DNA of 64,000 nucleotides. Origin: Dyadobacter sp. 676 (GTDB lineage: Bacteria; Bacteroidota; Bacteroidia; Cytophagales; Spirosomataceae). Of this stretch, positions 7,419 through 45,278 are shown piece by piece; the first letter of the stretch is position 1, and each line of letters starts with the position of its first letter. The notes below the pieces were generated by a model. That model did not search any database and was not told the origin of the DNA. It saw nothing but the letters and a program-made list of their open reading frames with translations. The position numbers were made by a program, and so were the translations under genes. Where the stretch lies: assembly GCF_040448675.1 (NCBI RefSeq), contig NZ_CP159289.1, forward strand, positions 1,364,001-1,428,000. Reading direction: 5' to 3'.

Positions 7419-8076
7419 ACTCAAAAGTAAAATCGATTCTTTTTCAATCCCTGTTTGTGTCCGCTTCCCTGGCCACTGTTACCGGTTGCGGTAATTCGGA
7501 CAATAAGCTACCCATCCTCGGCGAACGCGACTGGGTTAAGAAGACGGTGGATGGGAAAGAGGTCGTTGACACCATTTATAATACCATTCCCAAATTTGCC
7601 TTTGTTAACCAGTACGGCGATACGGTCACGGAGAAAATCGTAGAGAATAAAATTTATGTAACCGACTTTTTTTCACCACATGTCCTACCATTTGCCCGGT
7701 AATGAAAAAGCAGATGGTAAAGGTTTACGAAGCATATAAAGGGAATCCTGATGTGATGATACTCTCCCATTCCATCGACCCCGAACATGACACGCCGGCG
7801 GTTCTCAACCAGTTTGCCAAAGACCTTGGGGTGGAAGGCCGGCAATGGCAGTTCCTGACAGGTGACAAGGCCAAAATCTACGAGATAGGACAAAAGAACT
7901 ATATGTCGACGGCCAAGGAAGACACTACCGTGCAGGGCGGCTACATTCATAGTGGCGCGTTCATCCTCGTGGATAAGGACAAGCACGTGCGCGGCATGTA
8001 CGACGGGACTACCGAAGAAGGAACAAAAAAATTGCTCAACGATATGGAACGGTTGCTGGCCGAATACAAGAAATGA
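7415..8076 (+). CDS. SCO1/SenC-type copper chaperone (frameshifted)
   Basis: SCO proteins deliver copper or thiol reduction to the CuA centre of cytochrome oxidase. The restored protein of 220 residues has lipobox VTGC (Cys25) and a thioredoxin-like fold. The copper site CPTICP lies near residues 90-95, and a later conserved His is seen in YIHSGAFILVD. The frame is broken at a T7 run (7667-7673). One more T changes the dead-end reading into DFFFTTCPTICPVMKK, exactly the family motif, so a sequencing error is likely. It overlaps both neighbours by 4 nt, forming a coupled cluster with the lipoprotein and cytochrome c. Confidence 0.85.
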
Positions 8077-18033: not shown

Positions 18034-20515
18034 TCAGTTCTGCTGACCGCCGCCTCCTACAACATCCGTGTTGTTAACCGATTTGGTCTTCTTCTTAGGT
18101 GCATTAAAACTCATTTTCCCGATGGAGTAGCTGAACGTGACCTTGAAATTACGGTTGTAAAGTTGTGTGGCGCCGGTTTGTACGAATTGCGGAGAAGTCA
18201 GGTCCGATGTAAATCGTACGCCCTTCGTGAGGAAGTTCTCCGCACCGAAGCCGACGCTGCCTTTCTTATTAGCGAAATCCTTTTTGAACCCTAGTGAATA
18301 TAGGTAAAAGCCTGTACGCGTTCCCTGCAACTGTATTTCTTTACCGCGATAAAAGCCGAATGCCTGCACTCCCCAGCCGTTCCGCAGTGAAATCTGCGAC
18401 ATCAGGCGGCCGCCGAAATTGAAACCGGAGTTACTGGCCTCCACCGAAGTGCCATCCAGGCCGGTCGTCTGGCCTTCCAGATAAGAATGCAGGATATCGA
18501 TGCTTCCGTTCAATGTCCATTTCGGCGTGAGATAAACATTCGCGAACACGTTGGCGCCATATGCCCGTTGTTTGCCGATATTCTCGTAAGTCGTTACGAT
18601 CGCTCCCTGCAGAGTATCCACCGCCATTCTCACCTGTGTGATCGAGTTGTTGGTCTGACGGGCGAAAACGGACGCATTAACGTAGGTCTTCCTGATATTG
18701 GTGCTCAGCCCCAATTCAAAATTGTCGGTCAGTTCGGGGCTCAATGCCGGGTTACCGGTGCTGATGCTCTGCGGATTCGAAAGATTGACATTCGGGTTGA
18801 GTTGCTGAATGCCCGGCCGCTGAATACGCCGGTTATAGGCGGCTTTCAGGGTGGTACTGCCCGAAAGCGCTTTCGACACATTGATGCTCGGTACCAGGTT
18901 TCCGTAGTCGGGGATATCGATCACTTTCCGGTCGCCCATATCAGCGGTAATTCCGGTGTATTCGTACCGCGTTCCCAGTTTGAACGTGTACTTGTTTTTG
19001 GTAGAAAGTGTGTAGGAAACATAGCCAGCCGCCACATTCTGTTTATAATTCAAAACACCCGAGGGATTGGTCGTACTCAATGCAAACTCGCCCGACTCTC
19101 CCGCGGTAAAATATTTGTAATCGCTATCCACGGTCCTGAAAATACCCTTCGCGCCGAATTCCAGCATCTGGTTCTTGCCCAGGGGTGTCTGGTAATCGGT
19201 TTGCAGTGTCAGTTCCGAGTTCTCGTTTTTGTTTTCGTTTTTCAATTTGCTGCCCACCGCGCCCGATTCGTTGAGCATGTCGGTGTTAAAGTTGTTCGTC
19301 AGACCGGTGCGGCTGTACAAAGTCGAAATACTCCACTCCTGCTGCGGTTTGAATGTGCGGATATAATCGATATTGAAATCCACCGTTCCCGAAAGGTCCT
19401 TGCGATTGACCTTGCGCAATGAGTTGTTGCTTAGAACGCCGTTTTCGTATTGGTTGATTGTAAGGTCCTGTTTCTGGATAAAATTCCGTGTCCCGTAACG
19501 CAGGCCCGCCGACAGCGCCTGATTTTTCCCCAGGTCGTAATCCCAGCCCAGCGAATAATGCCCGAACAAGCCACGATCTTTTGCCGTTGAACTCTGATTG
19601 GTCAGAAAAGCGCTGCCGCCGGAGTAGGTCGTCTGGTCGAGCACCGAAGTCGCCTTGTTATAAAATGCCCGTCCGAAACCGCCAAGCGTAAAACCCATCT
19701 TGCCTTTGCGGTAACTTCCGTTCAAGCCCAGGTTGGAGCCGCGGTTACCGACGCCGGAATCGATATTGAGTGTCAATCCCTTGCAGGTTATTCTTTTTGG
19801 TAATGATATTGATGATCCCTCCCGAACCTTCGGCATCATATTTGGCCGATGGCGACGTAATTACTTCCACGGATTTGATCATATCCGCCGGAATCTGCTT
19901 CAATGCGTCGGCAACATTACTGGCAATGATCGTCGAAGGCTTGTTGTTGACCAAAACCCGGATATTCGAACTTCCGCGCAGCGAAACGTTTCCGTCCAGG
20001 TCTACCGAAAGCATCGGTACTTTGCGCAAAAGGTCTGACGCATCGCCGCCTTTGGAAGTAATGTCCTTTTCCGCATTAAAAACCATCCGGTCCACTTTCT
20101 CCTCGATCATCGACTTTTCCCCGGTAATGGTTACCTCCTGCAAATTCTGCACGTTCGCCGCCAGCCTGACCGCGCCTACCTCCACATCCTTCCCATTCAC
20201 GACCGTTATATTTACCGCTTTGTCTTTGTAGCCGATAAACGAGAACATCAGGCGGTAAGTCCCCGGCGCGACCTTCGAAATCGCAAACTTCCCATTCTCA
20301 TCCGCCGTGGTGCCGTCGACCGTCTTGTTCTCGGCGACATTGAATAATGCAATACTGGCAAACTCCACGCCTTTCGCAATTGCTGAATCAAGTACAATTC
20401 CTGAAATCCTCGAATTGCCCTGCGCAGGCGCCTGCGCGAAAGATCGATTGACCGAAATGGCCAGAAAGAAGGTTAAAACAAATAATCTGACGGTTGATAA
20501 CAACGGGTTGTTCAT
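18034..20515 (-). CDS. TonB-dependent outer-membrane receptor (frameshifted)
   Basis: An outer-membrane transporter of about 826 residues driven by TonB. The start at 20515 (MNNPLLSTVRLF) gives a signal peptide ending SFAQ. A carboxypeptidase-like regulatory domain follows (SRISGIVLDSAIAKGVEFAS). The plug domain contains VTITGEKSMIEEKVDRMVF and SPSAKYDAEGSGGIINIITK. The barrel fills the rest and ends with NRNFKVTFSYSIGKMSF. The frame shifts near 19778; one base removed at the GGG there joins NNLQG to LTLNIDSGVGNRG. The architecture fits the outer membrane beta-barrel group without SusD partner. No substrate-specific neighbour is visible. Confidence 0.85.
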
Positions 20516-20833
20516 GGTTTTGTTGGTTAAATCAGGAGGGCGCATTCGTCACTTTCCTACTTAAATACAATTCTCGACACAAAGGAAAAATATACTTTAC
20601 AGTTATTATTTGATAATAGATGGCCTCCCCGATTTCATCGGCGAATCGGCATTTTCCGGATATCAATCCGAAAACCGGCTCGGCCCTCGAACCTGCTGTA
20701 TGTGCTGGTACAATTTTGTTGAAGAAGGCAGACAATACCGGAAAAATGCGGATTACTACCCTATTTGTCATTACTTTGGGATATCAAACGCCAACTAACA
20801 CGGCCCGATACGCGCCGACATACTCTTCCGTTC
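20516..20833. other. Divergent intergenic region, no gene seen
   Basis: These 318 bases separate the TonB-dependent receptor from the membrane-protein gene on the plus strand. I see no supported gene, RNA or strong hairpin; both promoters should lie here. Confidence 0.5.
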
Positions 20834-22656: not shown

Positions 22657-24186
22657 ATGACAGCCCGGATACGCGCTTTCGATGAACAAACGGCATTGCA
22701 AGAAGTGAAGTGTTTCCTACCAACGTGGCCTTCGACCGCTTCACCGGCCGGCGCGAATCCGTTGAAGGCATTTCAGAGCTTTGGTTTTCATGAAGCGCTC
22801 CGCCAGGCGAGGGAAATCCTGGGCTTGCATACCACGCTTTCCCTGGACGAATACCGTTCGTTTTACAATTCCAAAAAAGTAAGACCGGAAATCCTCGAAA
22901 AGGTGGTGCAGGAAAAGAAGGGGGCGGCCAAAACCTTCGAATGGCAGGATAAGGCATTGATGAAGAAGTATCCCATCTCCGGTCCGCCGCGGAGGGGGCA
23001 ATTGAGGGCAAACTGGAAAAAACAATATAAAATCGATCTCGATGAGGCAGTGCATCCGAAGCTGTTCCGCATCCTGGGCCGTTATGTGGACCAGGGCCTG
23101 GCCGACTGGATGTTCCCCGTACGCGGGCAAGGCCTGCTCGACTCCCTGCGCGAAATGGAGTCGAACAGCTACGTGAGCGTATTCAGGACATCCCGTGCGC
23201 GGGACCTGCTGGTTCGCACAAATCCGTCTATTACCGGGTTGCTCGGCATGATCGTGGGAGAAGAAACGCTCTTTCGGCAGTATCTATTCGATCAGCAATT
23301 CGCACACCTGGGATGGTCGGCGCTGATCTGCGAAATAGAAAAGGGCAATGCCCTTCCCGGAAGGCGGACAGCCTCTCTGCACGACGTGGCGGTTTTTGAA
23401 CTGTTGCTCGAAATAGACGAGCTCGACTACCGGACCGACGGGCGGTGGCTACCTCTGTCGGTCATGCTGGCCGAGCGCCCGCCCGCATTGTTTGACGATG
23501 TGCCCGCCACCGAAAAGGACGAGATCCTTGAAATCTGGCAGGAGGCAGTTGAGTGGAGCTGTTATGACGCCGTCCTTACCGCGTTGAACGACGAGAATGG
23601 ACGTGAACGCGCACCGGCTTACTTACCAGGTCATGAGAAAAGTAATGCAGGTCCAGATACGGTTTGTATTATAGGCGGAAGTTGGCTGGCGGAACGCGTT
23701 TCCACCGCCTGCCGCGCATCGCTGAAAACGTATGACTTCGCGACCGACCCGCATGGCAACACATTGGAAAAACTTCTTGGAAGGGTGCTATCCGCCGATG
23801 CCCCGGCAAGCCTCGGGCGCTTTTTCTCCCGGACGGGACTGACGGGAACCGATGGATTCGACATCCCAACGGACGATGTAATCGGGCTCGTGGCCACCGC
23901 CGGGAATGCTCCGGGCGATCTCCGGATCGGTTTACATTCGCCGGCAAAAGCGGATGTTCTTCCCGTTCGTCTATTGTGCGTGGTGGAGCAATGCCCCGAA
24001 ATAGTGCTGAATGTGATCGTGCGTTCCCGGGCAATGCACGAATGGTTCGCCAACGAATGGATTCACCTGGTGGTCGTCGATCCGGGCTCGGGTGAGCTGC
24101 GTATTTTGAAAAACGGGAAGATGACTGCGTACAAACAGGATCGCCGGGCGACAGGCCGACGGTTAGTCGAAAATGCCGTCCATTAA
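22657..24186 (+). CDS. Short DabA-like (DUF2309) protein lacking zinc site
   Basis: DabA is the carbonic-anhydrase-like subunit of the DAB inorganic-carbon transporter and is usually about 800-1000 residues. This intact frame has 509. Residues 1-320 follow the family: ANPLKAFQSFGFHEALRQA, RYVDQGLADWMFP, then QQFAHLGWSALICEIE. The C-terminal domain is also present (DLRIGLHSPAKAD; LPVRLLCVVEQCPE; NEWIHLVVVDPGSG). Between them the catalytic block is missing. Where the family has FCIDVRSE, this protein reads VCIIGGSW (Cys337 kept, Asp replaced by Ile339), and the later His/Cys ligand region is absent. The next gene is a short DabB-like protein. Loss of the zinc site argues against normal carbonic-anhydrase chemistry. 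Confidence 0.75.
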   Translation: MTARIRAFDEQTALQEVKCFLPTWPSTASPAGANPLKAFQSFGFHEALRQAREILGLHTTLSLDEYRSFYNSKKVRPEILEKVVQEKKGAAKTFEWQDKALMKKYPISGPPRRGQLRANWKKQYKIDLDEAVHPKLFRILGRYVDQGLADWMFPVRGQGLLDSLREMESNSYVSVFRTSRARDLLVRTNPSITGLLGMIVGEETLFRQYLFDQQFAHLGWSALICEIEKGNALPGRRTASLHDVAVFELLLEIDELDYRTDGRWLPLSVMLAERPPALFDDVPATEKDEILEIWQEAVEWSCYDAVLTALNDENGRERAPAYLPGHEKSNAGPDTVCIIGGSWLAERVSTACRASLKTYDFATDPHGNTLEKLLGRVLSADAPASLGRFFSRTGLTGTDGFDIPTDDVIGLVATAGNAPGDLRIGLHSPAKADVLPVRLLCVVEQCPEIVLNVIVRSRAMHEWFANEWIHLVVVDPGSGELRILKNGKMTAYKQDRRATGRRLVENAVH

Positions 24187-24266
24187 ATATTCGCTATCGG
24201 TGGCCGGTGGTTGGTGAAGCCGCATTGCCGATTGATATCGGTTGCCGATAGCTTTTTTGCATTGAT

Positions 24267-25200
24267 ATGTTTTGGAATGATTTCCATTTTGACAGTTTAA
24301 CCGCTGCCTATCTGACGGTCGGGCTCCTGATAATGCTCCTCGCCGCATGGTATGGCCGCAAAACAATGGATGGCAGGCAATGGCCAAAATTCGGTTACGC
24401 TGTAATGCTTTTTTGTATTGGTTACTGCCTTACCATCCTGTCGGGCAGCACGAAAGCGCTGGTGATTGGTTGGGAACTGATGGGCATAGCTTCGTTTCTA
24501 TGTATGATCCCGCACAGAAACCTGGCAACAGGCAATTCGGCGAAAGCCTTCTTTATATATCGCCTGGGTGATGTGGGCTTGCTCCTTGCCATGTGGGCAA
24601 GCCACCACCTGTGGCGGGAAAATACCGCACTGATCTCGTTCCTGCTGCTGGCGACGGCCTCGGCGCAGTCGTCGCAGTTGCCATTGTCGTCATGGCTGCC
24701 ACAGGCCATGGACGCGTCTTCCGCGGCGGGTGCCATGCTACTCGCTGCGCTGGTTGTTCAAATGGGCGTATTTCTCCTTTTACGCAGTATGCCGCTTTGG
24801 GAGCATCAGTTATCTGTACGCATCCTGATCGCATCGCTCGGAACAGCGACGGCGGCTTTGGCAACCGGCTTCGCACGGGTCGAACCGTCCATGAAACGGC
24901 GTATCGCTTTTGCTTCGATGGCACAGGTAGGACTCATTTTTATCGAAGTAGCGGCTGGTTTTAAAGAGATAGCGATGGCCCATGTCGGGGGGAAACGCAC
25001 TGCTGAGAGCCTACCAGCTGATAATATCGCGCGGCCTGACCAGTATCGGCATCCGGAAACACAATGCTATAAGCTGGACCGAAACCTGGGAAGACCGCCT
25101 TCCTAAAAGGCTGCAATACACACTCTACGTACTGTATATAAAGGAATGGGGGGGTCTACACGCGCTTGTCCCGATACCTAAAATCCTGATATTGATATGA
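24267..25200 (+). CDS. Short DabB/NuoL-like proton-channel protein (frameshifted)
   Basis: DabB and NuoL are proton-conducting membrane subunits. This protein has about 310 residues, against about 500-600 in the family. It starts at the conserved region FHFDSLTAAYLTVGLLIMLL, with LVIGWELMGIASFLCM, AFFIYRLGDVGLLLA and the core AQSSQLPLSSWLPQAMDASS followed by GAMLLAALVVQMGVFLLLR. MKRRIAFASMAQVGLIF follows. The frame shifts at G6 (24987-24992). One G fewer gives HVGGNALLRAYQLI, matching the channel's later helix, and the gene ends at 25200. The first two helices and the C-terminal third are absent. It follows the DabA-like gene by 80 nt. Confidence 0.7.
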
Positions 25201-25276
25201 CTAACCCGCTATTCCGCTGCGGTAATCCGATAATCGAGTTTCATAATTATAGTTAACCTGTTCGTTTAAGTTTCGG

Positions 25277-25308
25277 AAACCATCTCATGTTTAAAATGAG
25301 ATGGTTTT
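25277..25308 (+). terminator. Intrinsic terminator
   Basis: A 12-bp stem (AAACCATCTCAT / ATGAGATGGTTT) with an 8-nt loop and a T-run. It closes the Dab-like pair before the desulfurase operon. Confidence 0.85.
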
Positions 25309-25371
25309 TTGTTTAATTTGAACTAACCCTGCACATTTTGCTTTTTTGAAATAAAAAACCGGCCTGTACCC

Positions 25372-26549
25372 TTGAAGCTGCCCGTCTATTTGGATAATAA
25401 TGCAACCACCCCTGTCGATCCGCGGGTTTTACAGGAAATGCTCCCGTATTTCACAGAGCGGTTCGGGAATGCGGCCAGCCGTACGCACGCTTATGGCTGG
25501 GAGGCGGAAGAGTCGGTCGACATTGCCCGCGAGCAGATCGCCAGTCTCATAGGCGCGCACCCGCAGGAGATCGTGTTTACCTCCGGCGCAACCGAGGCTG
25601 TGAACCTGGCAATCAAAGGTGTTTTTGAAAATTCGGAGCGGGAGAAAAAACACATTGTCACCGTTTGTACGGAACACAAAGCGGTGCTCGATACCTGTAA
25701 GCATATCGAACGCCTTGGCGGCTCGGTAACCTACCTGCCGGTGAATGCGAATGGCCTTATTGACCTTACCGACCTTGAAAATGCCGTTACACCCGATACG
25801 ATTCTTATTTCGGTCATGTATGCCAACAATGAAACGGGGGTGATACAACCGATGCGGGAAATTGCCTCGATTGCCCGGAAACATCACATTCCATGTATGT
25901 CGGACGGCACGCAGGCGGTGGGCAAGATCCCGGTGGATGTCCAGAATGACGGCATCGACCTTCTTGCTTTAAGCGCGCATAAAATTTATGGTCCCAAAGG
26001 TGTGGGAGCCTTGTATGTGCGCAAAAAAATCCCGCTGTCGCGCTTACCGCGCAGATCGACGGCGGGGGGCACGAACGCAATATGCGAAGCGGCACGCTGA
26101 ATGTCCCCGGTATCGTGGGCCTGGGACGGGCCTGTGAAATCGCCGGGGCCGAAATGGCCCGTGAAAGCAAACGGCTCACCGCGCTCCGTAATGCATTCGA
26201 AGTGGAACTGCTCGTATTGCAAGACATTGAAATCAATGCGGAGGACGCCCGCCGGTTACCGCATTGCACGAATATCTCGTTCGGGCAGGTGGATGGCGAG
26301 AAGCTGATATTCGAAGCGGGTTCCGATCTGGCGTTTTCCCGCAGTTCGGCGTGCACCTCGGCAACGCTGGAACCCAGTTACGTATTAAAAGCCATGGGTT
26401 TTTCAGACGAACGCATCCATAACTCATTCCGGTTCAGCTTTGGGAGGTTCTCTACCGAAGAACACGTAAACCACGCGGTTTCCGTTATTTCCAGGATCGT
26501 AAAACAACATCGCCATGAAAGAAATCACGGACATCATCCGGTCGTATGA
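25372..26549 (+). CDS. Cysteine desulfurase, NifS/IscS type (frameshifted)
   Basis: This PLP enzyme takes sulfur from cysteine and passes it on as a persulfide. The restored protein has about 392 residues. It starts (TTG) with VYLDNNATTPVDP; the PLP lysine lies in SAHKIYGPKG; the active Cys is in SRSSACTSATLEPS. The frame shifts at the A7 run (26023-26029). One more A yields RKKNPAVALTAQIDGGGHER, the normal family sequence. It overlaps the XdhC gene by 35 nt. In Rhodobacter a NifS4 desulfurase supplies XdhC-bound molybdenum cofactor with its sulfur, so this operon position suggests cofactor sulfuration rather than general Fe-S assembly. Confidence 0.85.
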
Positions 26550-36307: not shown

Positions 36308-38411
36308 ATGTACTACAAATTTCTCCGGGTCGCCCTGCTGGCGGTCCTCGCCTCGTGCAATGCGTTTTCGCAAGACTCGCTTGTCATTAAAAACCGCTTC
36401 CTGGAAAGAAAATTCACCATCGGTGATAATTCTTTCTACACATCGCGCTTTCAGCATCTTCTGACGAACAAAGATTATAGCCGCCCTGGCTCAGAAGAGT
36501 TTTATTTTACGATTAACGGTGCGCCTGCCAGCTCCAACGGCGGCAATGGATTATTTAAACACATAAAACATGTATTAAGCCGGCAGGATAACGGCGTCCA
36601 GCGAGCGACGGTGCAGCTCGCCGGGAAACCAGGTACAAGTGCCGAAAACGTCGTAGTGGATTTAACCTACGAAGTGTACGACGAATTGCCCGTTGTGCGG
36701 AAACAGATCAGCATTACCAACAACACTTCCAAACCCATCGCTATCGCCGACCTGGAAGTAGAGCGGCTAAACCTGGTACCTATTTCCTCGCAACAAACGG
36801 AATTATATACCAATTACGGCTCCCGGTTCGCCTGGCGTCCGTACCACGGGGATCACCACGATGCCGCTGTATTTGTGTATCATAATTATGCTAAAGAAGG
36901 CTTCATCCTTGGCAACGAAGCGCCCAGTATTCTCAAAAAGACCGAAGTATATGCCGACCACAACCGCATTTCCATCGGTATGACGAGTCTCACCGATCAC
37001 TATCCGTTTAAAAAGTGGATTGAACCGGGAGAAAAGTTTAACAGTCCCAAAACTTTCATCTGCCTCGTGAAATCCCAGAAGTGGGAAGACGCATTCGAAG
37101 GCCATTTCGCCGACTTCATACGTACACGCCTGGGTGTGAAACTTTTTGAGCGGAAGGAAATCCCCTTTACATTCTTTAATACATGGCGGCCTTTTTATAC
37201 CAATATCAATGACACACTCGTAACCCAGCTCGCCGACGGTCTGGAAGGCACCGGCACAGATCTATTCATTATGGATGCCGGTTGGGAAAACAATTACGGC
37301 GATTGGGAACCTCATCCAAAGCGCTTTCCGAACGGCCTGAAGCCTATTACCGATCACATAAGAAAACGGGGAATGAAAGCCGGTCTCTGGATGAGCCTCG
37401 GGTCCGTCGACAAAAGCAGTAAACTGTACCAAGAGCATCCCGAATGGTCGGTATACGATAAAAACGGCGAGCCCGCTTATCTGCATGAGGAAATGAAAAA
37501 CCGGGTCACGATGTCACTGGCTTCGGGTTATTACGACTATATTCTGGAAAAGATTAAACGCCACGTCCGCGAAAACGACCTGGCTTACATTAAACTCGAC
37601 CTGGCCATCGCCAACTCGGCCTACGTGCTCGATTATTCTAAAAAAGGCGACTACAAATCCGAAGGTAAAGGCTACAAAGACCGCGAAAGCTCCTATTACG
37701 CCATCTACGAAAAGGCGTTACAACTCTTCGACGACCTGCACAAAACATTTCCCGACCTGCTTGTAGACTGCACTTATGAAGTCTGGGGAGAATATTATAT
37801 TAATGACTACGCGTTGATCGAACACGCCGATTACGACTGGCTCACCAATTATGACGACGACGCGCCCGTGGGCCCTATCAACATCCGCCAAATGGCCTTC
37901 GACCGCAGCCGGGCAATTCCGACAGCGACCAATCTGATCGGCAACCAGTTCATGGATTCGCCCTACTCCAAATATACATTTCTGTCGCTGGCGTCCGTCA
38001 AGCCGATCCTCGTTGGCGATAGCCGTAAACTTCCCGCGGAACTGAAACCATGGTATCTGAAATGGAATACTTGGTTTAAGATGATGGATCAAAAATATCA
38101 GTTCACCCGTTTCTCTTACGTTTCCGACATTTTCCAGCGGCCGACCATGAGCAACTGGGATGGTGTTTATAAATTCAACAAAGAGAAACAGGGGGGGCGT
38201 GTTGTTCTTTTTCAGGAACGGGTCGGTGGAAACGACGCGGACATTTGCATTTCCGCTTGCGGAGCCGGGCAGCCGGTACCGGCTTTTTTCGCCGGAAGAT
38301 GGGAAGGATTGGGGTATTTACAGTGGGAAAGAGTTGCTTGAAAAAGGTATCCCAATCCGGATCGACAAGCAATTCGAGGCGTTGGTCCTGGGCATCGAGA
38401 AAATCAATTGA
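36308..38411 (+). CDS. GH36-like alpha-galactosidase (frameshifted near 3' end)
   Basis: A secreted or lipid-anchored glycosidase of about 700 residues. The N-terminus has a signal with LASC (Cys17). A beta-sandwich domain precedes the TIM barrel (TFFNTWRPFYTNIND; DAGWENNYGDWEPHPKRFPN; GMKAGLWMSLG). The likely nucleophile is the Asp in AYIKLDLAIAN, and the acid/base Asp lies in HADYDWL. As written it ends at 38341 after a shift in the G7 run (38191-38197). One G fewer joins NKEKQGG to VLFFFRNGSVETTRTFAFPL and continues to 38411 with a beta-sheet C-terminal domain. Substrate range is not determinable. Confidence 0.85.
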
Positions 38412-38628: not shown

Positions 38629-41600
38629 ATGGTGCCAATGATGATGATTTGGGGAAATCAATTGTCCAGAAAGCCGATGCCGACTAACGAGGTCATTCTG
38701 CGGCTTGCACAAAGTTTCAAAGGACTACCGACCGACGTGGTGGTGAAGCAAATGGACGCGCTGGGAATCAAATCACAGGAGGCGACCAAAGTAATGATGC
38801 TGTTGTCGGATAAGACCGATATGGTGAAGGAAAAGCAGGCGCTCGCAAACAAGGCGATGAAGGAGGGCACCAGCTTAACCAACGAGTTCAACGTCAAAAA
38901 CGAGACGCGCATGGCGCAGCTCGAAAAGACCGGCAAAATGATTACATGGCTCGCCGAGCAGCTGGGTAATATGTCGATTCCCGCAGTCCTTCTGGTTACT
39001 ACCGGGTTTATCGCTCTGGTGAAAGCGCTCGCCGCCGTTCCCGAATTTATCGTCGAGAACAAGGAAACATTTGCCGCGCTGGGCGTTGCGATCGTCTCGC
39101 TCAATGCTGCCAATATTGCCGCAGCTGCTTCGGCGCTCGCACACGCTGCCGTCGAGAAAGGCCGCGTGATCGCTACCCAATCCGTCACCGCTGCACAATG
39201 GCGTTTGAACGCTGCTATGACCGCCAACCCGATCAGGCTGGTCGTCGCTGCTATTTCTGCGCTCGTGGGCGGTTTTATGGTCTGGCACAACCATTCCGAG
39301 AAGGTTCGCGCTGGGGTATCGGGCTTAATGGCTGGTTTAAAAGAAGCTGCCGGGGTCGTCGCGTAGTTCGTGAAGGCATTTTTAACCCTCGATATTGCGG
39401 GCATGGCCGACGTAATGATGAACGGCGGCAAGAGGGTCGGCGACGCTTTCACGAGGGGCTATAACGACAAATTAAAGGAGGAGTCCGGCAAAGTTGTCGC
39501 CCAGCACAAAACCACAGTCGATAAAAAGGTCGATCTCACCCAAAAAGGGGCAAAGGCCGCAGCCGATGCCGAAATAGCAGCCGCCACCGGTGCCGCCGAC
39601 GCGATCACCGCGAAGGAGCAGGCCGCGCTCGACAAACGCAAAAAAGCGAAGGAGAAGCAGCCGCAAGACTTCCGGGACGCCGAAGACAAGTACGACGAAA
39701 TGGTGCGCAAAGACCGCGAAAAAGCGCTCGAATTGCTTTCCCAAATGGAGGCCGAAAACGAGCGCAGTAACGCGACCACCTCGCTGGAAATCGAGGAAAG
39801 CAAGATCCGCGAGAAAGCCCGTAAACGCATTAAAGACATCGAGGATTCGAAAGCCGGCGAAGCCCTGAAATTGAAAGTCGTCGAATCGATCAACCGAAAT
39901 GCCGAAGAGTCGCTCGACAAAGTGCGCCGGAATTACCGCGACAAGCGGATCAAGGAGGAAGAAGAAGCTGCCAAAAAGCGACTGGAAGCCGAAAACTTCG
40001 TGCGCGAGCAGGAAGAAGGGGCAGAAATGACCCTGCTCGAATGGCGCGAAATGCAGGCCAAAGGAAACGCTTAAAAGCTCGCAGCAGTGCACAAAGACCG
40101 TGTCGACGTCGAGCTGCGCCTTACGCAGCAAAAGCTCGAAGCCGAAATCATGGCAGAAAACCAGAAGGCCGTTCGGACAATCACCGACACCGAGCAGCTG
40201 GCCACCGCATTGAACGCGATCGAAGAGCGGTACAACATTGCCAGCGTCATGGCGAACAAGAAGGCGACAGACGAAAAGCTCGCGATCGATCGGGATCTGC
40301 ACGAGCAAAAAGCAGCCACGCTGAAAAACTATTCGGATATGTTCAGCTCGCTATTGCAGGGTGACGTTTCCGAATTTATGAACGCTGCAAGCACGATGGT
40401 CAAAGGTCACCAGACCGCGTGGCAGCAAAAGCTCGCAGCAAACCAAGCGAGCTACGAGCAGGCCGGTCAAATGGCGCAGACCGCCGTCGACTTTTTGAAC
40501 GATCTCGCCCAACGTAAAGCCGAGAAAGCGATCGCCGAAGCCAACCGCGAGCGGGACGAAAAGGTCGCCATTCTCAATGCAGAGCTGGCCACCACCGAGG
40601 CAATGATCAAACAGTCGTCGGAAAACATCAAAGCCACCAAAGAAGCCGAACAAAACCGCCTTGCCGAGCTGCAAAGGATCTTAACGTCCGAGGCTACAAC
40701 CGAGGAACAAAAGCGCGACGCCCTGCACAAATTCTACTCGCAGCAGCTGCAAGACATGAAAGCCGCCGAAGAGCAGAAAATTATGGACATGCAGAAAATG
40801 GCGAACGAGGCAAAAACCGCCGACGAACGTGCCGCGATGGAAGAAAAGATCCGCATGGCCACAAAGGAGAGCGAGGAAAAGATCCGGCTCGCGGAAGAAG
40901 AAGCCGAAGCGAAAGCCACCATGATCGACGAGCTGGCCGAATTTACCGCCGACGTGAATGCCGAAGTTTTGAAGGACGCGGAGAAATCGAGCGACAAACA
41001 GGTCAAAATGGCCGAAGACGAAGCCGAAAAGAAAGCCGAGATTAAGGAGCAGCTGGAAGACCTGATCGCGACCGAGAACCAAAAGCCCGCACGAAGGAAG
41101 CCGCCGAAAAGAAGAAAGCATGGCAGGCGCAAAAGAAAGCCGACATCGCGGCGGCGCTGATTACCGGGGCGCTCGCCGTTCTGAAAGCCCTCGCTAACTT
41201 TTTCCCGCTTAACATCGTTCTGGCAGCGGTCGCAGCCGTGGCGACGGGGGTACAGATCGCCAAGATAAAAAGCCAGCCGGAGCCATCTTTCGCGCATGGT
41301 GGGACGCTCGGTTTCGTGGCGCAGGGAGGCAAACACGGAAGCACATGCGGAACGGGCGGAATCGCCCTCGTGGATCGCAGGACACAGCGCGAAGTCGGCG
41401 AAATGGAGGGCGACGAAGCTATCATTTCAGCCAAGCAAACGGCGGCGAATTGGCCGGTAATCCAGCAGATGTTCAAAAACGCCCGGACGGCGGGAAAAAC
41501 CGAATCTCCGGTGCTGCCGATGGCCTCCGAAGCGACCCCGATGGCGTTCAGGGATGGCGGCAAATTCGAGTCGCCATATTGGGAAAAGGGAATGTACCTT

Positions 41601-42019
41601 TTTGGCTCCAAAAAGAAGAAAGAGGCCGAGAAAGCAGCAGCCGAAGCCGAAGCAGCAAAAGCGCAGGCCGAAGCCGATGCCGCAATGGCCGACGCTATGG
41701 GCGGGGTCGATGCCGACACCAGCGCATACAACGGGATCGACGCCACAGACCCGGCAACGATGGGCGACACGGCAGGCGCTTCGGCAGCGCACGCGAAAAA
41801 GCAGGGCGAGGCGCAGCTAAAAGCGATTCAGGACATTCTTGCGGCCACGCTCGACAACGGCGACACGCTCGCGCGAGCTGTTTCCGCACTTGGTGAAGTA
41901 AAACAGGCCGCAAAGGGGTCGAAGGAGCGGTGCGAAACGTGGAAGGCGCGGTGCATTCAACCAACACCCAGGGCAAATTTGACCAATTGATCGGGGCGAT
42001 TTCTAACCTCGCAGCTTAA
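38629..42019 (+). pseudogene. Phage tail tape-measure protein, truncated and broken
   Basis: The same frame runs through 38629-39363, 39367-40071 and 40075 to about 41085, interrupted by TAG (39364-39366) and TAA (40072-40074), then shifts by one base near 41085 and again near 41913, to end at a TAA at 42017. The parts join into one long protein: hydrophobic helices (IPAVLLVTTGFIALVKALAA; MTANPIRLVVAAISALVGG), then very long Glu/Lys/Ala coiled coils, then a second hydrophobic helix (NFFPLNIVLAAVAAVATGVQ) and the end GKFDQLIGAISNLAA. This is typical of tape-measure proteins of Bacteroidota phages. The 5' half is missing. Single-base nonsense codons argue for true decay. Confidence 0.8.
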
Positions 42020-43709: not shown

Positions 43710-44267
43710 ATGTTTGGAAATTTGGAAAGTATCGGCGTCAAATGTGGGCCAGTCGCAACCGGCTGGCTCACTCACTTATATCTGGTCGGCTGCGACAGCG
43801 CCGCCTACGACATTTACCCGGATCAGTTACTCACTACGGCAAATCCTTTATGGCTCTCCGGGTCGAAGCCGGGCGGCAATCCGCTCGTCACTGAGATAAA
43901 GCTGCGGGCGAAGACGGCCACGTTTTCGGAAGGATTACAAACCAGCCCGGCTGGCGCTTCGTACAACCCGCAGATTTCGGTGCCTATACCGAGCATCGCT
44001 TCCGAAATCGTCGGATGGGTTTACCGCAATCAGAACCGCAGGTTTATCGCCATTTTCCGCGACACGGCGGGCTTTTGCTACATGGCTGGCACGAAGAGTA
44101 ACGGACTACGGCTTTCGTGGGCGAGATCCATCTCACAGACAAGCGCACAGCAGCTTTCCGTTTCCGGCTCCAATTGGCACCCTGCCCTGTGGATCAGAAG
44201 CATCGATCCGGAAGTGCTTTTCCCATCAAAAGAGTTCGATTACAGTTTCGACATAAGTTTCTCTTAA
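43710..44267 (+). CDS. Putative phage tail protein
   Basis: An intact 185-residue protein without signal or membrane segment, rich in beta strands and aromatic residues (WLTHLYLVGCDSAAYDIYP; GGNPLVTEIKLRAKTATFSE; NWHPALWIRSIDPEVLFP). It follows the tape-measure region and precedes the fibre-like gene by 13 nt, a position typical of distal tail or baseplate components. I cannot assign a named family. A frame at 43571-43894 in another phase is a shadow. Confidence 0.55.
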   Translation: MFGNLESIGVKCGPVATGWLTHLYLVGCDSAAYDIYPDQLLTTANPLWLSGSKPGGNPLVTEIKLRAKTATFSEGLQTSPAGASYNPQISVPIPSIASEIVGWVYRNQNRRFIAIFRDTAGFCYMAGTKSNGLRLSWARSISQTSAQQLSVSGSNWHPALWIRSIDPEVLFPSKEFDYSFDISFS

Positions 44268-44280
44268 ACAATCTCACACC

Positions 44281-45278
44281 ATGCCTTGGAATCCCTCCAT
44301 CGCCGAAATCGAGGGTATTATCGACGGAAATCTCAAAAGCTCCCCTCCCGCCCCACCTCAAAGCAATTCTGCCGCTGTCGTTCGCTCCCTGCTTAAAAGT
44401 ATTTGGGGAGCAATGGCGCGACGGGCGTATCTGCTGCTGTTGCAAGCGTTGACGCCGCCACAGCCGGAATGATCGCCCGCAGCCTTAGCGTAAGCATGGA
44501 AATCAATGTACGCGGCGACGTCGGAAACGACACCCGTTCCGGTATTGACAACGGCACTACCGCGACCGGAGCAGTTAAAACGCTCACCCGCGTGGCCGAA
44601 CTGGCTTCCGGCAAATGCCAATCACTGAACGTTCTGATTAATAGCGGAAATGTTATTGTGGACGCGGACGTCTCTTTTACCGTGCCTGAAATCTTTGTGC
44701 ACGTAAAAGCCGGGGCGACTCTCACCGTGAAAAAACGGACAATCATTGACAGCAATAACATTGTAGTCGGCGAAGGCAACTACCGTATCATTTTTGCGTG
44801 TAACAATGCAAACATTCGAGTAAACGGAACTGTGATCGTCGAAGGTGGAACAGGTTCCACCGGTGCCAGAAACCAGTTTGACTATTTATGGAGGCAGGGA
44901 GCGTTTACAATCACCACACCCGCATTCATGAAAGCCGGGCTACGCTTTCAATCGCTGAACTTCTTTATTGAAAATGCGACCGTGACGGTAGGCGATAATG
45001 CGTATTTCGCAAATTATGGCGGTGCAGGGCTTAATACAAATGAGGGCGCACCGTCAAGATTGGCGACTTATAGCCGTTCAACCGTAAACTCGACATTCAC
45101 GCTCGGTACTGCCGCAACCGAATCCACGCTCGTCGGCGATCGGACACAGATCAGAACCTTCACCCCTACCAGCAGCACCGACGCAAGGGTTTCCGAAGGG
45201 GAGCTGGTCGCCGACTCTAACTTTCTCTACCAAAAGCGTAGCGGAGTAATCAAAAAAATTGCCTGGGCAACTTTCTAA
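44281..45278 (+). CDS. Putative phage tail fibre/spike protein (frameshifted)
   Basis: The start (MPWNPSIAEIEGIIDGNLKS) and a second frame join at a G4 run near 44405-44408: one more G gives KSIWGSNGATGVSAAVASVD. The restored protein of about 332 residues has a short helical N-terminus and then parallel beta-helix-like sequence (LNVLINSGNVIVDADVSFTV; NIRVNGTVIVEGGTGSTGAR; NFFIENATVTVGDNAYF), typical of spike or fibre shafts. The C-terminus ends FLYQKRSGVIKKIAWATF. It is part of the tail module and would bind the host surface. Confidence 0.6.

Follow-up and report, generated by a model that had tools for sequence, protein, structure and literature searches.

A short DabA/DabB pair without the carbonic anhydrase-like domain is conserved in Dyadobacter

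In DAB/MpsAB systems, protons are believed to drive the hydration of CO2 by means of a DabA finger which is inserted in DabB. The genome of the soil bacterium Dyadobacter sp. 676 comprises 7.28 Mb in a single contig, and a stretch of 64,000 nucleotides from it, the window analyzed here, contains a DabA-like gene lacking its central part, followed by a likewise shortened DabB-like gene. Hence, the question arises whether such a pair is merely a DAB system in decay or whether the remainder has been kept for a purpose of its own.

For DAB2 of Halothiobacillus neapolitanus (PDB 9rd0), PMC13144422 divides DabA2 into an N-terminal domain (NTD; 280 residues), a beta-carbonic anhydrase (beta-CA)-like domain I (341-655), which harbors both the zinc site and a membrane finger with Glu444, and a domain II formed by two segments (281-336 and 656-827). 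According to the same paper, the finger packs on DabB TM11-14 and, together with TM12-13, makes a probable periplasmic half-channel, while for the NTD only a folding role is suggested there. The window gene dabA' (22657..24186, + strand, as are all features given below) encodes 509 amino acids and matches the Pfam DabA family PF10070 (747-position model) with 154.7 bits (cut-off 25) in two stretches only, at model positions 18-281 and 608-747. This agrees with the earlier note on this DNA, which had described an intact DabA-like ORF of 509 residues with N- and C-terminal regions and no central block. The window DabB' scores 85.3 bits against Proton_antipo_M (PF00361; cut-off 21.5), so that the family searches proposed in that note place both proteins above the family cut-offs. 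Among short relatives, PF10070 is matched by 41/41 members of the DabA' alignment A1 (E <= 0.001), a set from which P0001, P0028 and P0117 (fragments or the window's own entry) were left out.

Alignment to full-length DabA assigns approximately residues 1-312 of DabA' (22657..23592) to the N-terminal helical domain and the first half of domain II, with a mean occupancy of 1.00 in the 41 shorts. They are followed by a variable linker of low model confidence (approximately residues 313-333; 23593..23655), which alignment, occupancy and model identify as the junction at the missing domain I, and by the second half of domain II (approximately residues 334-509; 23656..24183), displaying a four-strand alpha/beta core in the model. 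The profile of short DabA' matches this last part to DabA2 659-809 of PDB 9rd0 with a whole-sequence E of 3.2e-12. Measured along the full-length DabA of genome G034, mean occupancy in the 41 shorts is 1.00 at positions 41-340 and 0.95-1.00 at ~661-820, while the region of ~361-660 is empty except for isolated linker residues, which reach 0.30 at most (521-560). Domain I, one of two paired domains, is thus missing as a clean unit together with zinc site and membrane finger.

This bears directly on the catalytic residues. All five columns holding the zinc ligands Cys, His and Cys and the Asp-Arg dyad are gaps in 41/41 shorts (residue counts leave out the broken copy of G041), whereas full-length DabA shows C, D, H and C in 39/39 and R in 38/39 sequences; the finger around Glu444 is absent along with the whole domain. 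The earlier note had assumed that VCIIGGSW replaces the zinc motif FCIDVRSE. In the alignment, however, VCIIGGSW (23662..23685) is the first strand of the second half of domain II and lies on LCIIGRR of full-length DabA, while the zinc motif sits in the deleted part, which rules out a zinc motif mutated in place. A middle part hidden in another frame can likewise be dismissed: in the search suggested by that note, domain I of G034 gave no tblastn match (E <= 0.01, six frames) at the window locus or at 10 other short-pair loci. Beyond domain I, the stretch of domain II expected to hold the cytoplasmic DabA-DabB hairpin, as mapped from the text of PMC13144422, has changed as well: its conserved LGAG motif is found in 0/41 shorts as compared to 38/39 full-length proteins. 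Moreover, this stretch has a pLDDT < 50 in the DabA' model, and P0040 and P0044 have lost most of it. Because of these three features, docking of DabA' to its partner in the known manner appears doubtful. A Foldseek search with the DabA' model gave no match at E <= 0.001, and the absence of DabA2 from the 50 VIA rows listed for the DabA' structure search carries no weight. A defense system was considered as well and rejected, as neither DabA' nor a relative's DabB' matched any PADLOC defense family at E <= 0.01.

The second gene, dabB' (24267..25186), was delimited by tblastn of 304-aa relatives and by PF00361 and corresponds to the TM3-TM11 part of DabB, with helix numbers taken from homology. 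It is present in overlapping pieces (24267-~25000, 24988-25152 and 25142-25186), as the frame is lost twice in the assembly. Of these, the last one is a weak match of just 15 residues (E 0.02-0.06 in tblastn), and the longest ORF amounts to 279 aa (24267-25106), its tail being already out of frame. Since DNA matching a 304-aa relative is spread over three frames up to 25186, apparently two frame breaks have occurred; the earlier note had recognized the broken frame, yet had counted a single indel. Its description of a DabB of about 310 residues holds for the lack of the first helices and the last third, but not for the length of the window ORF. Compared to the 633-residue DabB of G034, DabB' spans ~88-415, with ~20 residues missing near 211-230, and by homology TM1-2 and TM12-15 are gone. 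Neither the N-terminal 85 nor the C-terminal 218 residues of G034 DabB gave a tblastn match (E <= 0.01, six frames) at the 11 short-pair loci. With a mean pLDDT of 54.6, the structure model of DabB' is too poor to be used, so that the number of helices relies mainly on homology. Downstream of dabB', a consensus scan detected a terminator-like hairpin of 14 pairs with a T run (25275..25309).

The membrane part that is left has been altered at positions of the proton path. The comparison covers 40 short DabB' (P0139, P0156, P0162 and the frame-broken window copy being left out) and 42 long homologues, of which 6 originate from genus loci and 36 are database matches of >= 475 aa, some of them named partial. 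In TM7, the lysine of 42/42 long homologues is Gln in 40/40 shorts and in the window (codon at 24666..24668). This position equals NuoL K229 by alignment, while its match to DabB2 K235 is taken from PMC13144422 and from spacing rather than from a direct DabB2 alignment. The TM8 Tyr, present in 42/42 long homologues, is Leu in 40/40 shorts, and the TM11 Arg of 42/42 long homologues is retained in only 2/40 (others G 20, S 8, N 5, A 2, Q 2, T 1). Three proton-path positions of DabB are hence replaced clade-wide; additionally, GP of the GPTP motif, found in 42/42 long homologues, is lost in 40/40 shorts. At the same time, the equivalents of NuoL E144, R175, D178 and H334 are kept in 40/40 and that of K305 in 39/40 short proteins. 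The DabB' profile can be aligned to residues 79-362 of E. coli NuoL, but DabB' differs from NuoL and other Proton_antipo_M proteins in having neither a K229 equivalent nor the GPTP motif nor anything beyond ~TM11. Judged from these residues, a working proton path of the NuoL/DAB kind would not be expected in DabB'.

Short DabA' occurs in 11/48 genomes of the genus, the window's included, and is absent from 37/48. In the ten other genomes, it occupies the same site, flanked on one side by a divergent peroxiredoxin gene and on the other by a cysteine desulfurase gene, which is followed by xdhC. In 9/10 of them, DabB' (304-326 aa) follows DabA', while in G041 DabB' is gone and DabA' broken; overall, both genes are intact in 9/11 short-pair genomes, and DabA' of the window is intact, too. 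A search of 5.8 billion proteins revealed ~40 short DabA' (470-568 aa) among the best 120 matches listed, the rest of these 120 being full-length or fragments, with full-length P0041 ranking amid the last shorts. The corresponding search for DabB' gave at least ~40 short forms of 304-329 aa among the matches listed. Every short-pair carrier with an organism name is a Dyadobacter. A search of genome contigs with DabB' returned nine Dyadobacter records (fermentans JDP9, jiangsuensis, endophyticus, soli, beijingensis, SG02, CY261, 50-39 and BIN28) and 22 other loci with long forms. Short homologues of both genes therefore co-occur in other genomes with the same regions missing, which the earlier note had named as a check and which speaks against decay. 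The shortened pair is genuine, and decay alone does not account for it.

At the 22 non-Dyadobacter loci, DabB is long (419-688 aa) except for the split L126, and 21 of them hold a DabA without the internal domain I gap (L123 partial, L126 split). No domain-I-less DabA was seen outside the genus, neither in the order (106 of 390 genomes with PF10070) nor in the phylum (30 of 395 genomes with PF10070), in scans that scored at most two candidates per genome and in which split or partial matches, e.g. in G082, G201, G213, G109, G260, G142 and G558, were read as fragments. Likewise, no title on a domain-I-less DabA turned up in the open-licence PMC literature. The gene order, in which the earlier note had seen a reversal, is the normal one: A precedes B at every one of the 8 further DAB loci analyzed from the genus, of which 6 are full and 2 have an eroded DabB, and at 21/22 loci outside it, the remaining one showing no DabA, so that an unusual gene order can be ruled out.

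How the frame breaks in dabB' are to be read depends on the quality of the window assembly, which seems rich in indel errors. Comparison with ORFs of G002 having a window counterpart flagged 11 of 32, a set that may include shadow ORFs. In seven of the 32 window genes, pieces of 77-98% identity are distributed over two or three frames; the four other flagged ORFs each consist of one piece containing in-frame stops and might be shadow ORFs. The split genes lie at 1357-2282, 7424-8073, 18037-20521, 25372-26546, 36875-38408, 38686-42016 and 44146-45056, the last one (77% identity, with stops) being the least clear. As frame splits are common and also affect the cysteine desulfurase adjoining the pair, the breaks in DabB' are most likely assembly errors and hence no evidence of decay. 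The completeness of the assembly is 95.3, compared with ~99-100 in most genus relatives, and a second beta-CA gene of G000 is split as well (C1:2042013-2042469).

Both short genes are under purifying selection and stay together. For the eight least-diverged pairs shown, pairwise dN/dS is 0.13-0.22 in both genes. A codon model for 9 genomes yielded an omega of 0.215 for DabA' and 0.192 for DabB', with omega = 1 being rejected (2dlnL 867 and 599), and a trio including the window copy gave 0.189. In these runs, gapped codons were dropped and a tree of four neighbor genes with weak inner nodes (49-63) was used. The four neighbors themselves display an omega of 0.022-0.065, which makes the values of the pair 3-10 times higher, and six full-length DAB pairs one of ~0.10. 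Within DabA, constraint has moved: domain II is the most constrained part of the full-length protein (0.061, as compared to 0.085 for domain I and 0.113 for the NTD), whereas in short DabA' it is the least constrained one (0.235) and the NTD the best-kept one (0.178). As the remainder is preserved by selection, it probably has a new, non-catalytic job. Nevertheless, the elevated omega relative to the neighbors, the broken pair in G041 and the absence from 37/48 genomes indicate that the pair is dispensable.

The locus itself preserves what looks like stages of its history. Full-length DabA-DabB occupy the same place in G034 (L061; 843 + 633 aa) and G022 (L060; 831 + 635 aa), with the same gene order as the short pair, but with considerably longer proteins than the ~510 and ~310 residues found there. 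G009 (L059) combines a full-length DabA having all five zinc-site residues with a DabB of 255 aa, and G037 (L063) an 803-aa DabA, which kept its zinc ligands and lost the active-site Arg, with a DabB of 132 aa. In full-length numbering, these DabB remnants stop at 403 and 407, not far from where short DabB' terminates (~415). In the DabA tree, read as unrooted splits, 42 shorts form one group (UFboot 98), which is joined by G037 (93) and by G037 and G009 (99); adding G034 is unsupported (31), while adding G022 as well reaches 92, so that the full-length DabA of this locus, G009, G037 and the shorts share one group. The DabB tree supports the short group with 1.0 and its link to the remnants of G009 and G037 weakly (0.77). 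Since the C-terminal third of DabB is also missing beside a full-length DabA in these two genomes, the DabB end was probably lost first, an order that depends on long-branch trees in which the joining of G034 is unsupported and the DabB link weak. A further stage is the empty site: 47 genomes show a cysteine desulfurase match, and among the 30 loci examined from them, 17 have nothing but 155-641 bp between the neighbors. One empty site, L089 (G007), contains a relic of a DabB C-terminus (47 residues at 2808-2948, E 1.5e-4 to 8e-4). Finally, the beta-CA family PF00484 is present in 48/48 genomes of the genus, so that a CO2-hydrating pump would be dispensable.

On balance, we lean towards a conserved Dyadobacter pseudo-DAB, i.e. 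a non-catalytic and non-pumping adaptor or sensor docked to the membrane instead of a CO2 or ion pump. A DAB/MpsAB CO2-hydration pump would have been reduced at one ancestral locus, where DabB may have lost its C-terminal third (TM12-15) first, in the common ancestor of G009, G037 and the shorts. This would have left the DabA finger partnerless, which might explain why it was later lost with the whole domain I in the short lineage. As DabA' lacks the finger domain and DabB' TM12-15, the losses in both proteins meet at one interface. What remains of DabB', presumably nine helices, could serve as membrane anchor for DabA', and it is this presumed anchoring, together with the NTD being the best-kept part, that suggests an adaptor or sensor. 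A more specific proposal, namely a new two-protein membrane complex in which the NTD of DabA carries the function (sensing or docking) of a pseudo-transporter, is tentative at present. The short pair retains NTD, domain II and ~TM3-TM11 as subunits homologous to those of DAB2, but differs from DAB2 by the lack of domain I, zinc site, finger, TM1-2 and TM12-15 and by the exchange of the TM7 Lys for Gln. MpsAB of Staphylococcus aureus belongs to the same family of two-gene inorganic-carbon systems and, as reported in PMC6689103, complements a carbonic anhydrase mutant; unlike MpsAB, the short pair has no catalytic domain.

Slow decay, in which a dispensable DAB is lost stepwise, with the short pair persisting for long as an intermediate that has no specific function, is an unlikely explanation that nevertheless deserves some weight. 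Beta-CA in every genus genome, the 17 empty sites among 30, the eroded DabB of G009 and G037, the missing active-site Arg in the latter, the broken pair of G041 and a constraint weaker than in full-length DAB would all fit, but an omega of ~0.2 with clear rejection of neutrality, intact genes in 9/11 genomes plus an intact DabA' in the window, and residue swaps fixed clade-wide do not. As the same replacements are fixed throughout the clade, random decay is hardly their cause, and the indel from which the earlier note had considered decay is a weak argument given 7/32 frame-split window genes and the omega of intact relatives. That note had also thought of a transporter for another small ion or molecule. 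Such repurposing would profit from the NuoL-type residues still kept in DabB', yet we regard it as rather improbable, because the TM7 Lys, TM8 Tyr and TM11 Arg are replaced in 40, 40 and 38 of 40 shorts (without any Lys among the TM11 substitutes) and neither the outer half-channel helices nor the finger of DabA is left. A regulatory form, the note's further suggestion, is possible. In the particular version in which the short pair would act as regulatory partner for a full-length DAB complex present alongside it, however, it has only a slim chance, as 9/11 short-pair genomes lack a full-length DabA match and just G003 and G040 carry both forms. An unsequenced or misassembled middle, for which the many frame breaks of the window assembly could be put forward, is refuted by the fact that ten further genomes of the genus and ~40 protein clusters among the matches listed share this architecture, as well as by the lack of domain I DNA at all 11 loci.

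If the pseudo-DAB reading is true, a proton-driven CO2 pump has been remade by removing one paired domain and the matching helix block; evolution removed the active site and both sides of the finger contact and kept the remainder. The locus offers a natural deletion series, leading from the complete pair through a full DabA beside a truncated DabB to the short pair and the empty site, which is suited for testing what the NTD of DabA and TM3-11 of DabB do alone. Several short DabA' are annotated as 'putative inorganic carbon transporter subunit DabA' in databases despite having neither the zinc ligands nor any other part of domain I, so that caution is advisable with such annotations. Another DabA variant, encoded in one frame of ~750-830 aa with model positions ~46-104 of the N-terminal domain unmatched, was observed in L008 (G049), G117, G259, G274, G284, G339, G373, G381, G413 and G671. 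A second full-length DabA-DabB lineage is located elsewhere in the genomes G034, G003, G040 and G042 (L062, L058, L064 and L065), and its DabA proteins form a group of their own with a support of 100.
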